Shown: positions 7,546 through 38,358 of the stretch, piece after piece
How positions within the stretch are numbered: position 1 is the first letter of the stretch
How the letters are laid out: each line of letters begins with the position of its first letter
Assembly (NCBI RefSeq): GCF_022678645.1
Contig: NZ_JALBWV010000012.1
Span: forward strand, 1 to 64,000
Reading direction: 5' to 3'
Origin: Saccharopolyspora soli
GTDB taxonomy: Bacteria > Actinomycetota > Actinomycetes > Mycobacteriales > Pseudonocardiaceae
DNA: 64,000 nucleotides
The notes under the pieces: generated by a model
Seen by the model: only the letters and a program-made list of their open reading frames with translations
Told to the model about the DNA's origin: nothing
Databases searched by the model: none
Position numbers and translations under genes: made by a program

Positions 7546-8702
7546 GACGAGTACGCGCTGTTCTCTTCGACGTAGCCGTGGGACAGGTCGGTGGTCAGGA
7601 TGGTCGCCGCCTGCTCGCCGAGGTGCAGGTCCACGACGATCTCGATCTCGCGGCCGGACAGGTCGGCCTCGCTGCGGTCGCGGGCCTTGGTGCCACCGGA
7701 GAACAGCGTGACGCCGTTGGTGGCGATCTCCAGCTTGGCCACGTCGATCTCGGCATCGACCCGGCCCAGTGCCATCGCGATCCGGCCCCAGTTCGGATCG
7801 GAGCCGAACATCGCGGTCTTGACCAGGTTGTCCTCGGCGATGGTGCGGCCGATCGCGACCGCGTCGGCCTCGCTTACCGCGCCGCGCACGGTGATGTCGA
7901 TGGTCTTGGTCACGCCTTCGGCGTCGCCCTGCAAGTGCCGGACGAGATCCGCGCAGACCTCGGTGAGCAGTTCGACGAAGTCCTCTTCGGACGGTTCGAC
8001 GCCCGAGGCACCGGAAGCCAGCACCAGCACGGTGTCGTTGGTGGAGGTGCCGCCGTCGACGTCCAGCCGGTCGAAGGTGACGCGGGTGGCGGCGCGCAGC
8101 GCGGCGTCGAGGGAGTCACCGCTGATCACGGCGTCGGTGGTGAGCACGCTGAGCATGGTGGCCATGTTCGGTGCGAGCATCCCCGCACCCTTGGCGAAGC
8201 CGCCGACGGACCAGCCCGCCGGGTGCCTGCCGAAGGCCTGCTTGGGTTTGGTGTCGGTGGTGAGCACCGCGCTGGCGGCATCGAGACCGGCCTGGTCCGT
8301 CGCTTCCAACGCCTTGGCCGCGGTGTCCACACCGGACAGCAACGCGTCCATCGGCAGCCGATCGCCGATCAGGCCGGTGGAGCAGACCGCCACCTCGATG
8401 GCGCCGACACCGAGCACGTCGGCGACCTGCTCGGCGGTGGCGTGGGTGTCCTGGAAACCTTCCGGGCCGGTGCAGGCGTTGGCGCAGCCGGAGTTGAGCA
8501 CCACCGCGTGCAGCTTGCGCTCCTGCAGCACCTGCTGCGACCACAGCACCGGCGCGGCCTTGACCTTGTTGGTGGTGAACACCCCGGCCGCGGCCTGCTG
8601 CGGTCCGTCGTTGACGACGAGCGCGAGATCGCGCGCGCCACCGGCCTTGATCCCGGCGGCGATCCCCGCCGCCCGGAAGCCAGCAGGTCCGGTAACGCTC
8701 AT
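7542..8702 (-). CDS. argJ: Ornithine acetyltransferase (ArgJ, self-cleaving)
   Basis: Recycles the acetyl group from N-acetylornithine to glutamate, making the cyclic arginine route. The 386-residue precursor has the autocleavage site AT in [15 protein letters not shown]; the nucleophilic Thr is about residue 182, which would split it into alpha and beta chains. Other family motifs ([21 protein letters not shown]) are intact. The ATG at 8702 has a good GAGAGGTGG site. Both the start codon and this ribosome site lie at the end of the repeat mini-ORF that separates it from the ACT gene. Confidence 0.95.
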
Positions 8703-8838
8703 TGCGTCCCACCTCTCCGCGATTCACAGTGGTAGTGGCGTCCACCACGAATCTCACGTTTCGAAGTTTTTTGTGGCTGGCTTGCGTCACGGTCCCCTGG
8801 GGTGCGGTTGAGGAGGACCGAGGTTGACACATCGCTAC

Positions 8839-8842
<4 letters not shown>
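8699..8842 (-). repeat. Repeat mini-ORF between ACT gene and argJ (ATGA-bounded, family A copy)
   Basis: A 144-base open frame (47 codons, MSSDVSTSVLLNRTPGDRD...) fills the whole gap between two arg operon genes. Its ATG overlaps the stop of the ACT gene (ATGA, 8839-8842) and its TGA overlaps the argJ start (ATGA, 8699-8702). At the DNA level it is clearly homologous to the tandem pair at 36597-36883. Relative to those it carries one extra base about two thirds along, so the C-terminal residues are in another frame although the ORF stays open. It also supplies the argJ ribosome site. Whether it is translated for function or is a passive insertion is unknown. Confidence 0.75.
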
Positions 8843-34870: not shown

Positions 34871-35752
34871 ATGGCGGCGCTGCTCTACCTGGCTCCGGCC
34901 GGGCTGCTGCTCATCGGCATGATGGGCTACCCGCTGTACCAGCTGGTGCAGATCTCCCTCTACGAGTACGGCCAGGCGCAGTCCTCCGGTGGGGCTCCGC
35001 TGGAATTCCTCGGCGCGGGCAACTACCTGGCGCTGCTCGGCGACGACCGGTTCTGGACGATCCTGCTGCAGACCTGCGTGTTCGCCTTGGTGTGCGTGGT
35101 CGGCAGCCTGGCGGTCGGCATCGCGCTGGCCGTGCTGGCCACCAGGATCAGCCCGCTGCCCCGGATGCTGCTGTTCCTAGCCGCGATGGGCGCCTGGGCG
35201 ACCCCGGCGGTGGCCGGTTCGACGGTCTGGCTGTTCCTGTTCGACCAGGACTTCGGGCTGGTCAACGAGGTGCTCACCGGTGTCGGCGTGGACGCCGCGG
35301 CGGGCTTCTCGTGGACCTACGACCGGTTCGTGGCCTTCGGGCTGGTCGCCGCCGAGGTGATCTGGTGCTCGTTCCCGTTCGTGCTGGTCACCACCTATGC
35401 CGGGCTCAGCGGGATTCCCGGCGAGATGGTGGAGGCCGCCGCGCTGGACGGAGCGTCGGTGTTTCGGACCGCGCGCAGCGTGCTGTTGCCGATGCTGCGC
35501 CCGGTGCTGGTGATCGCCACCATCCAGTCGATCATCTGGGACTTCAAGATCTTCACCCAGATCTACGTGATGACCAACGGCGGTGGCGTCGCCGGGCAGA
35601 ACATGGTGCTCAACGTCTACGCCTACCAAGAGGCGTTCGCCGGGTCGAACTACGGCCTCGGATCGGCGATCGGCGTGGTGATGACCGTGCTGCTCATGCT
35701 GATCACGCTGGGCTACCTGCGGGCGCAGCGGAAGGGCGAGGCGTTGGGATGA
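34871..35752 (+). CDS. Sugar ABC transporter permease (DasB/MalF type)
   Basis: The 293-residue membrane protein has six predicted segments, beginning ALLYLAPAGLLLIGMMGYPL. The EAA loop that docks the ATPase is EMVEAAALDGASVFRTARSVLLPML. The ATG is immediately after the binding-protein stop. It pairs with the next permease to form the membrane channel. Confidence 0.92.
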   Translation: MAALLYLAPAGLLLIGMMGYPLYQLVQISLYEYGQAQSSGGAPLEFLGAGNYLALLGDDRFWTILLQTCVFALVCVVGSLAVGIALAVLATRISPLPRMLLFLAAMGAWATPAVAGSTVWLFLFDQDFGLVNEVLTGVGVDAAAGFSWTYDRFVAFGLVAAEVIWCSFPFVLVTTYAGLSGIPGEMVEAAALDGASVFRTARSVLLPMLRPVLVIATIQSIIWDFKIFTQIYVMTNGGGVAGQNMVLNVYAYQEAFAGSNYGLGSAIGVVMTVLLMLITLGYLRAQRKGEALG

Positions 35753-36600
35753 GTGCGTTGCGCAAGCCGCGGCTGCTGGCCGCCAACGCGGTCGCCGTTG
35801 TGATCGCCCTGGTGGTGGCCTTCCCGCTGTACTGGATGGTGCTGTCGGCGTTCAAGCCGGAAGGCGAACTGCAGTCCACCGACCCCCGCCCCTGGACGTT
35901 CGCCCCCACCTTGGACGGGTTCCGGCGGGTGTTCACAGTGGACGGACTGGGCGGGTACTTCGTCAACAGCCTGCTGGTTGCCGGTGCGGTCGTGCTGCTG
36001 TCGCTGCTGATGTCGTTCCTCGCCGCGGTCGCGCTCACCAGGTTCCGGTTCCGCGGCCGCGTGGTGCTGCTGCTGATGTTGTTGGTGGCGCAGATGGTTC
36101 CGGTGGAGGCGCTGACGATCCCGCTGTTCTTCCTGATGCGCGAGGTCGGTTCGGTGGCCCCGGCGTTCGGGCTCAACCACCTCGGCTCGCTGGTGCTGGT
36201 GCACCTCGCGTTCAGCCTGCCGCTGGCGATCTGGATGCTGCGCGGGTTCGTGGCCGCGGTGCCGGTCGAGTTGGAGGAGGCCGCCATGCTGGATGGCGCC
36301 AGCCGCACCCGGTTCGTCTGGCAGGTGCTGTTCCCGCTGGTGGCGCCCGGCCTGGTGGCCACCAGCGTGCTGTCGTTCATCCACGCCTGGAACGACTTCC
36401 TGTTCGCCAAGACGTTCATCATCTCGGCGACGGAGAACCAGACGCTACCGATGGCGATCCTGGTGTTCTTCACCCCGGAAGGCAACGATTGGGGAGCCAT
36501 CATGGCGGGTTCCACGCTGATGACCATCCCGGTGCTCATCTTCTTCGTCGTGGTGCAGCGGCGTCTGGTGTCGGGACTCGCCGGGGCGGTAAAGGGATGA
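35749..36600 (+). CDS. Sugar ABC transporter permease (DasC/MalG type)
   Basis: The 283-residue membrane protein starts at the ATGA overlap with the previous permease (35749-35752). It shows YWMVLSAFKPEGEL, the EAA loop VELEEAAMLDGASRTRFVWQVLFPLV and HAWNDFLFAKTFI, all typical of MalG-type carbohydrate permeases. Its stop overlaps the first repeat mini-ORF as ATGA. Confidence 0.92.
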   Translation: MSALRKPRLLAANAVAVVIALVVAFPLYWMVLSAFKPEGELQSTDPRPWTFAPTLDGFRRVFTVDGLGGYFVNSLLVAGAVVLLSLLMSFLAAVALTRFRFRGRVVLLLMLLVAQMVPVEALTIPLFFLMREVGSVAPAFGLNHLGSLVLVHLAFSLPLAIWMLRGFVAAVPVELEEAAMLDGASRTRFVWQVLFPLVAPGLVATSVLSFIHAWNDFLFAKTFIISATENQTLPMAILVFFTPEGNDWGAIMAGSTLMTIPVLIFFVVVQRRLVSGLAGAVKG

Positions 36601-36731
36601 GCAGCCCTGTGTCAACCCCAGTCCGCACCTCATGGGACCGTGACGCAACCCAGCCACAAGAAACCACGCAACGCGAGATCGAGCCAGACGCAACCACCAC
36701 TGCGAATCGCGGAGAGGCGGACCAGTCATGA
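36597..36731 (+). repeat. Repeat mini-ORF, first tandem copy (family A)
   Basis: A 135-base open frame of 44 codons (MSSPVSTPVRTSWDRDATQP...) is bounded by ATGA overlaps: with the permease stop (36597-36600) and with the second copy (36728-36731). It ends in a GCGGAGAGGCGGACCAG stretch that serves as ribosome site for the next start. It lacks nine bases present in the second copy; that loss keeps the frame. Confidence 0.75.
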
Positions 36732-36883
36732 GTAGCCGTGCGCCAACCCCAGTCCTCCTCAACCGCACCCCAGGGGACCGTGACGCAAGCCAGCCACAAG
36801 AAACCACGCAACGGGAGATTCGTCTGGACGCAACCACCACTGCGAAACGCGGAGAGGCGGAACTGGAGGCGGACCAGCCATGA
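36728..36883 (+). repeat. Repeat mini-ORF, second tandem copy (family A)
   Basis: A 156-base open frame of 51 codons (MSSRAPTPVLLNRTPGDRD...) runs from the ATGA shared with the first copy to the ATGA shared with the GH20 start (36880-36883). Compared with the first copy it has 9 extra bases early and 12 extra bases (an ELEA-type insertion) near the end, both multiples of three. The central part DRDASQPQETTQREI is nearly identical to the copy before argJ. The peptide is hydrophilic and shows no known domain. Confidence 0.75.
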
Positions 36884-38358
36884 GCTGGGACTCGCTGGTA
36901 CCTCGCCCATCGCTTGTGGCACCCGGAGCCGGGGTGCTCGAACTCGACCAGGGCACCACGGTCGGCGGCGAACCCACCACCGCGGAGTGGTTCCGGCAGC
37001 ACATCGGCGCGGCCACCGGGCTGCCGCTGCCCGACTCACCGCGGCCGACGATCGAGTTCCGCACCGATCCGGGCGAGTCCGGGCCGGGCGGCTACCGCGC
37101 GGAGATCCGGCCGGGCGGGGTGGAGGTGGTGGCGCACGACGCGGCCGGTGCGCACCACGCCGCGCAAACCCTGCGGCAACTGCTCGACCCGACGGCGTAC
37201 CGGTCCGTGCCGATCCACTATGGACGGTGCGTGCTGCCGTGCGGCCGGGTCGAGGACCGGCCGCGGTTCGGCTGGCGCGGCTGCCACCTGGACGTGGCAC
37301 GGCACTTCCTGCCCAAGCGCGAAGTGCTCCGGTTCATCGAACTGCTGGCGATGCACAAGCTCAACGTCCTGCACCTGCACCTGACCGATGACCAGGGCTG
37401 GCGCGTCGAGGTCCCCAGGTTCCCCGAACTGACCCGCGTCGGCGCCTGGCGGCGCCGGTCGATGGTCGGGCGCGGCGAGCCACCGCAGTTCGACGACCGC
37501 CCGCACGGCGGCTACTACACCGTCGAGGACCTGCGGGAGATCGTCGGCCACGCGGCCCGGCACCACATCACCGTGGTCCCGGAGGTCGACGTGCCCGGAC
37601 ACAGCCAGGCCGCGATCGCCGCCTACCCGGAACTCGGCACCGGCGAGCGCCCGCAGGTCTGGGACTGCTGGGGGGTCAGCGATCAGATCCTCAACACCGA
37701 TCCGTCCACATCGGACTTCTACCGAGCGGTTTTCGACCACCTGATGGACATCTTCCCATCCCCGGTGATCTGCGTCGGCGGCGACGAGATCCCCGGCGCC
37801 ACCGCGGAGCACGGCGCGTTCCTGCGGTCGCTCATCGAGCACGTCCAGGCGCGCGGCCGACGGGCCTCCGGCTGGGACGAGGTCCTCGATTCGGTGGACC
37901 CGCTGCCGCCGGACACCATCATCGCGGCCTGGCGCGACGAGCGGACCGCGATCCGCGCGGCGGACCGGGGGCACGACGTCGTGCTGTGCCCGGAGCACCG
38001 CCTCTACTTCGACCACCGGCAAGCCGACCACCCCGACGAGCCGATCCCGGTCGGCTACCTGACCACGCTCGAAGACGTCTACGCCTACGAGCCGCTGACC
38101 GAACGCGTGCTAGGCGTGCAAGCGCAGGTCTGGACCGAACACCTCGACACGCCCCGCCGGGTGGACTACGCGGCCTTCCCGAGGCTCACCGCGTTCGCGG
38201 AGACCGCCTGGAGCCGGGACCGCGACCTCGCCGACTTCCGACGCCGCCTGGTCGACCACCACCTCCCCCGCCTCGACGCCCTCGGCGTCGAATACCGCCC
38301 CCTCGGCGGCCCCCACCCCTGGCAAACCCGCCCAGGGGTCGCAGGTCGGCCGAGGTGA
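36880..38358 (+). CDS. Beta-N-acetylhexosaminidase, GH20 (DasD-like)
   Basis: Hydrolyses terminal GlcNAc from chitobiose-type sugars. The 492-residue protein has an N-terminal GH20b-like domain and a TIM barrel with GWRGCHLDVARHFLP, HLHLTDDQGWR, VPEVDVPGH and the catalytic Asp302-Glu303 in VGGDEIPG. No signal peptide, so it should act in the cytosol on sugars imported by the transporter encoded just before. Its ATG overlaps the second repeat mini-ORF. Confidence 0.92.
   Translation: MSWDSLVPRPSLVAPGAGVLELDQGTTVGGEPTTAEWFRQHIGAATGLPLPDSPRPTIEFRTDPGESGPGGYRAEIRPGGVEVVAHDAAGAHHAAQTLRQLLDPTAYRSVPIHYGRCVLPCGRVEDRPRFGWRGCHLDVARHFLPKREVLRFIELLAMHKLNVLHLHLTDDQGWRVEVPRFPELTRVGAWRRRSMVGRGEPPQFDDRPHGGYYTVEDLREIVGHAARHHITVVPEVDVPGHSQAAIAAYPELGTGERPQVWDCWGVSDQILNTDPSTSDFYRAVFDHLMDIFPSPVICVGGDEIPGATAEHGAFLRSLIEHVQARGRRASGWDEVLDSVDPLPPDTIIAAWRDERTAIRAADRGHDVVLCPEHRLYFDHRQADHPDEPIPVGYLTTLEDVYAYEPLTERVLGVQAQVWTEHLDTPRRVDYAAFPRLTAFAETAWSRDRDLADFRRRLVDHHLPRLDALGVEYRPLGGPHPWQTRPGVAGRPR
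38315..38339 (+). terminator. Possible hairpin at the end of the GH20 gene
   Basis: ACCCCTGG (38315-38322) and CCAGGGGT (38332-38339) form a perfect 8-bp stem inside the last codons, 19 bases before the stop. No T-run follows; a weak terminator at best. Confidence 0.3.

Follow-up and report, generated by a model that had tools for sequence, protein, structure and literature searches.

A MIRU-like repeat family at start codons in Saccharopolyspora soli and its relatives

Two small open reading frames lying head to tail in an operon of Saccharopolyspora soli belong to a repeat family whose units sit mostly at start codons, are missing from some of the same sites in relatives, are depleted in stop-creating changes and are read in several frames, with a few units fused in frame, at the sequence level, to the gene that follows. 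The best reading of this family (family A) is that of a MIRU-like, start-codon-targeting, translation-transparent mobile element. We hold it highly probable that the units are copies of a short non-autonomous mobile element at start codons, in which the openness of the frame is selected and not the peptide.

Results

Three units in the window

The window, the whole stretch of 64,000 nt that was analysed, holds two tandem units and a third copy:

35749..36600, + strand: upstream gene, ABC transporter permease (PF00528), its stop overlapping unit 1
36597..36731, + strand: unit 1, 44 codons; begins with the ATGA that overlaps the permease stop, ends with the one where unit 2 begins
36711..36717, + strand: GGAGAGG ribosome site of unit 1, within the conserved right-end block CGCGGAGAGGCGG
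36728..36883, + strand: unit 2, 51 codons; begins with the ATGA that closes unit 1, ends with that of the GH20 start
36763..36802, + strand: conserved DNA core of unit 2 (CCGCACCCCAGGGGACCGTGACGCAAGCCAGCCACAAGAA), a core also present in seven other genera
36851..36857, + strand: GGAGAGG ribosome site of unit 2
36865-36869, + strand: extra GGAGG of unit 2, part of a 12-nt internal duplication
36880..38358, + strand: downstream gene, GH20 family enzyme (PF00728), its start overlapping unit 2
8699..8842, - strand: third copy, a 47-codon ORF that ends CAATGA on the downstream gene start at 8702

Reading the sequence directly, we find ATGA at 36597-36600, 36728-36731 and 36880-36883, and thus see the two head-to-tail frames of 44 and 51 codons with ATGA junctions, each with its GGAGAGG site, that the first-pass annotation had described. 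Measured start to start, unit 1 is 131 nt and unit 2 is 152 nt long, and this difference of 21 nt equals the sum of the 9- and 12-base indels that had been noted between them. The third copy, which had been placed in the arg operon, is indeed there (8842-8703, minus strand), flanked by an ORF whose end is at 8839 and by the gene starting at 8702, which resembles argJ; its 3' part is in a different frame from that of unit 2 and still ends on ATGA. The right ends of units can carry a 12-nt internal duplication around GGAGGCGGAACT (e.g. window 36860-36871) that multiplies the ribosome block and gives rise to a length ladder of 140/152/164/176.

A family of 86 units

The window shows 3 of the 86 units that we count at 77 sites in this 9.35-Mb genome (G000). 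A sequence-only model built from 24 units gave 91 matches, 86 of them with E < 1e-12; the loci fetched from these yielded 90 intervals, of which 86 are at least 60 nt long. The repeat is not a product of chance, since a 36-nt core with at most 3 mismatches is found at 70 places in the genome and at none in the reversed control. Unit lengths mostly fall within 131-176 nt, with left ends that mostly read ATGAG(T/C)AGC (a second subfamily has ATGACACC) and right ends that run from CGCGGAGAGGCGG to a DTGA through the 12-nt ladder of lengths. Units, some of them in arrays, are carried at the contig ends C133, C143, C163 and C173, which suggests that the draft assembly breaks at tandem arrays and holds fewer copies than the real number.

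Further copies in related genomes, which the first pass had called for, are plentiful: 19 of 22 genomes of the genus (the window's own included) carry the family, with 1 to at least 138 copies per carrier, so that copy number in the genus spans 0 to at least 138. Scoring here was limited to 137 candidates in each genome. A second genome, G001, gave 142 matches; the 73 copies read there, in 70 loci, come mostly from the higher-scoring of these, and two of its loci (L164 and L166) hold family A pairs in opposite orientation, ~160 and 620 bases apart. Of the 297 genomes sampled across the family 56 match, as do 15 of its 46 sampled genera (own genus included); across the order, matches occur in 13 of 397 genomes under strict filters, all 13 in the window's family, with an unstated share of the 397 outside it. 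A search of named genomes with the exact core pattern returned 51 stretches, all from Saccharopolyspora (S. indica, S. shandongensis, S. hirsuta, S. oryzae, S. spinosa, S. kobensis and S. elongata). The build is the same in 30 copies from eight genomes of seven other genera: a DTGA start closes 15 of them, an in-frame fusion is seen in 5, a different start in 3 and no start in 5, and the script did not locate the core in the remaining 2.

Siting at start codons

At 62 of the 77 sites a same-strand start directly follows the unit, and at 55 this start is a DTGA (ATGA 45, GTGA 9, TTGA 1, the last doubtful), with another GTG or TTG at 7; 6 sites were scored as in-frame fusions, 7 show nothing and 2 are unreadable. 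On the other side, an upstream same-strand stop lies at +1 of the left DTGA at 48 of 77 sites, elsewhere nearby at 9 and nowhere at 18, with 2 unreadable. In this siting count the arg site of the window was scored 'none found', although an ATGA overlap is present there. For a base rate, 290 of the 847 DTGA in the window precede a coding-like frame under the same loose rule as was applied to the sites, a rule that also counts in-frame codons inside genes, and against this rate the 55 of 77 sites give P 3e-11; a stricter rule for real starts is passed by 68 of the 847.

The proposal of an operon-embedded repeat that enters start codons, mostly at ATGA overlaps, is supported, the family having neither proved to lack further copies nor to lie mostly off ATGA. 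The stronger picture of a cassette that restores the overlap on both sides holds in part. Many copies do so and bring a ribosome site, but the overlap is not obligatory (27 of 77 sites lack an upstream stop at +1, besides the 2 unreadable ones) and some copies are in-frame fusions. Counted by unit, 43 of 86 are coupled at a DTGA in G000, the window pair on both sides; among the 50 readable copies of G001 only 9 are, one of these doubtful.

Empty sites and a possible target preference

We searched for empty sites with joined flanks (38 + 23 constructs covering 55 sites, against four and five congeners), a site being called empty when the alignment of the relative spans the junction, contains no unit and differs in length by no more than 12 nt. 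At least one relative is without the unit at 19 of the 55 sites, and at the others one flank or no recognisable match was found. The GH20 site of the window is among the 19, being empty in G019 (89% identity) and G004 (88%) over ~490 bp. Eleven sites were read base by base, and at these the relative shows just one ATGA in place of the whole unit of G000. One of 64 pairs (C66 in G007) proved to hold an insert of ~55 nt matching a second repeat, family B, and is not empty, which leaves 63. Some insertions are older, because the unit is common to G000 and G004 and/or G019 at four sites (the C108 array, C174, the C155 array and C66). Tandem copy number varies as well: the three units of G000 at C108:54458 correspond to a single unit in G004 and in G019.

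No clean duplication longer than DTGA was seen at the junction. The fifth base of the left end tends to match that of the gene start: at 44 single sites in G000 the pairs (left end/gene) are 26 G/G, 10 C/C, 4 G/C, 1 C/G and 3 others (Fisher P 8.7e-6 on the G/C cells), and in G001 they number, in the same order, 6, 15, 2, 1 and 2 others (P 0.0013). We read this match as a target preference because ATGAG is retained at the left end in the 4 G/C cases, even though the gene begins ATGAC. The same cases disfavour a five-base target duplication, though two arrays, C126:9251 and C108:54458, begin with ATGAC followed by a subfamily-I interior and fit such a duplication.

REP/REPIN elements are moved by Y1 (RAYT) transposases, and we examined these enzymes as one candidate mobiliser family. 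They do not track copy number: G001, G008 and G012, each with at least 92 copies, have no PF01797 match, and G007 has 19 such matches and 4 copies. The Y1 transposase was set aside as mobiliser on these counts.

An open frame without a conserved peptide

With changes placed on a tree, frame 0 of 75 units in G000 has a ratio of amino-acid-changing to silent changes (N/S) of 0.87 of expectation and a single stop-creating change where 9.0 are expected (P 0.0012), and frame 0 of 50 units in G001 has 1.04 and 3 against 10.4 (P 0.0076), both P values depending on the tree and a Poisson approximation and being uncorrected for the number of tests. Plain stop counts agree (1 vs 13.3). Stop depletion is not significant in the non-0 frames of the two genomes (observed vs expected: 21 vs 18.0, 13 vs 10.0, 11 vs 14.8 and 24 vs 12.8). 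In frame 0, however, the consensus of G001 itself runs into a stop close to its end. Frame-preserving indels, considered as proof of selection, fail once the 12-nt ladder is set aside: judged from the G000 lengths, indels outside the ladder do not preserve frame.

The first-pass annotation had offered a small peptide family as one reading, and these near-neutral amino-acid changes and the use of several reading frames speak against it. If the units were real small-protein genes that duplicate and settle in operons, their function being the peptide, this would explain why many copies have an open frame and why the core frame is the same in 6 of the 9 genomes compared; we nevertheless regard it as extremely improbable. 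The check across copies at the codon level finds no peptide conservation, with differences of 0.41/0.44/0.46 at codon positions 1/2/3 among nine intact ORFs (one per genome) and a median dN/dS of 0.89 over 36 between-genome pairs. Unit GC by codon position is 0.62/0.59/0.61, against a position-3 GC of 0.88-0.93 in five genes fused to units, and neither of the two window peptides has a match in Pfam or NCBIfam. The core ACCGCACCTCAGGGGAACGTGACGCAA is strongly conserved at the DNA level, and this same DNA is read in three frames: among one ORF per genome, the NRTSGERDANQPQ frame (NRTSGERD-like) is used in G000, G001, G261, G131, G030 and G050, the TAPQGNVTQTSHK frame (TAPQG-type) in G163 and G051, and a PHLRGTERE frame in G118. 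A coupled or fused ORF contains 21 of the 40 cores examined from other genera, 13 in one frame, 4 in the second and 4 in the third. The TGA within the core, a stop in the third frame, is mutated in 4/4 third-frame copies vs 1/17 in the other frames, the four copies representing two genomes of one genus in whose 11 unassigned cores the TGA is kept in 6 and lost in 5. Frames also vary between the core and the ribosome site, the coupled copies of G000 having the frame pairs (1,2) in 35, (1,0) in 6 and (0,2) in 2, and those of G001 being spread 3, 3, 2 and 1 (one doubtful) over four pairs.

The openness itself could be a mere inheritance from a recent master copy of a selfish or neutral repeat, with no selection on it, as would fit with the likeness of the G000 copies, the absence of a bias to multiples of three among out-of-ladder indels and the 22 of 50 readable G001 copies that stop early or just before the ribosome block. 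We think this unlikely in view of the stop depletion in two separately diverged copy sets, and of the full-length open ORFs in genera that read the core in a different frame, their assigned copies having a mutated TGA where that frame would meet a stop. On a further reading, a regulatory leader, promoter or attenuator has been copied into many operons, which the intergenic position, the ribosome site and the short ORF would suit; in PMC4213456, moreover, a MIRU-bearing senX3-regX3 region is reported to drive regX3 expression. This reading we judge very unlikely, as the peptide is not conserved, sites are empty in relatives, a search of the units for conserved RNA structure found none and Rfam gave no match for them, and in 69 units the ribosome site is no more hidden than when the upstream sequence is shuffled (unpaired 0.37 vs 0.33).

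Fusions to downstream genes

In-frame fusions occur in G000 at C116, C140:46103, C3, C55:67253 and C96:162359, where the target gene is without a start of its own as scored by script; the sixth scored site, C77:75169, is doubtful by composition. For each of C3 and C116, a normal start is retained in two relatives. In G001, where 23 of the 73 copies are without a readable start, the 50 readable ones comprise 18 that are fused, 13 that stop just before the ribosome block, 9 that stop early, 9 that are coupled and 1 other.

A second repeat at the same junctions

A second repeat, family B, measures 71-77 nt start to start, has the core GACCGGGTGCGGGTGTCCCGCAA and shows no visible similarity to family A. 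Its build comprises a left ATGAGC, an ORF of ~24-27 codons and a GGAG-type block before a right ATGA, GTGA or TGATG, and its core is found in at least two reading frames. It occurs in G000 (L002, L006, L022, L046, L075 and L083) and in the relatives G004, G007, G015 and G020 (L140, L328-L331, L333 and L335-L339), with three tandem 74-nt units in G015 (L329, L330), and several units of family A are placed directly at the right end of one of family B. At the argJ-like start (window 8702; junction compared in L127, L128, L137, L140 and L149) there is family A in G000, family B in G020 and nothing in G004 and G019, while G007 has a longer B-like copy with an early stop and G015 a 107-nt B variant.

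Discussion

We propose that a non-autonomous element of ~130-180 nt inserts at gene start codons, oriented with transcription. With DTGA(G/C) at its left end, the element would let the target gene's ribosome site start the mini-ORF, which would tend to stay stop-free up to the right end. There a Shine-Dalgarno block (GGAGAGG/GGAGG) would precede a second DTGA that serves both as mini-ORF end and as gene start, so that translation could pass through the unit by termination-reinitiation; a minority of copies would instead be fused in frame, adding ~46 residues at the N-terminus. Judged from the sequence, the target gene is probably still translatable after insertion, and coupled translation would be expected in the cell. 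Selection would then keep the frame open and not the peptide, and would be the cause of the stop depletion, sequence conservation being that of the DNA at the left end, core and right end, presumably recognised by a recombination machinery. The family would move actively, and the core may serve in recognition.

MIRUs, whose original description is reportedly that of Supply et al. in 1997, are not known to have a transposase of their own, and their insertion at start codons uses a DTGA motif. Family A shares with them a tandem copy-number variation. In PMC12548453, MIRUs are apparently mobile and likely of minimal impact on the target gene, whose start codon they enter with an ORF coupled at -4 nt; PMC3635867 has most of them intergenic and thought to be transcribed in operons. 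Family A is alike in being a short interspersed actinobacterial repeat, apparently mobile, with start-codon insertion and a -4 nt coupled ORF, as PMC12548453 describes these for MIRUs. The suggestion that the units are an undescribed class is therefore only partly right, start-codon insertion with -4 nt coupling having been described for MIRUs in that paper. Unlike MIRUs, of which PMC4213456 names some of 77 and 53 bp and describes expression driven from the MIRU region, most family A units are 131-176 nt long; they also reach 86 units and 142 matches in two genomes and, among the genomes sampled, are confined to the window's family. Family A may further be set apart by the right-end ribosome block kept across genera, the core read in three frames and the N-terminal fusions.

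Other short repeats offer looser parallels. ORF-bearing MITEs and Rickettsia palindromic elements (RPE), the latter fused in frame to host proteins according to PMC2229807, are likewise ~100-200 bp with open frames and some host fusions, but family A differs from them in having no inverted repeats (none in 36550-36950) and no conserved stem-loop, and in its insertion at start codons. It shares with REP/REPIN elements a high copy number of short repeats without a transposase of their own, and differs in having no palindromes and a copy number that does not follow that of Y1 transposases. For S. erythraea, PMC3610266 mentions transposable sequences and long inverted repeats. We recognised no paper describing this repeat family in the open-licence literature searched. 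What appears new here is the family, its frame-independent openness and the N-terminal fusions, the architecture being known from mycobacteria; what seems to reach past the known kind is that openness is uncoupled from the peptide, that one conserved core serves in three frames, that fusions occur and that an unrelated second family occupies the same niche.

We are evenly divided on whether these repeats represent a general class of mobile element in which openness to translation is selected and not any peptide, DNA-conserved units homing to start codons, bringing with them a start, a frame, a ribosome site and a stop/start overlap, and staying open in whichever frame they are read, with at least two unrelated families (A and B) at the same junctions of the same genomes, MIRUs as a third, and fusions that add N-termini to proteins. 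How a repeat invades compact operons without breaking the downstream genes would thereby turn from a mycobacterial curiosity into a testable general strategy. Telling selection for an open frame apart from selection for a peptide also bears on the small ORFs that are annotated from ribosome profiling. The units may serve as natural cassettes for bicistronic expression in actinomycetes, and congeners with 0 to at least 138 copies form a set in which to seek the mobiliser.
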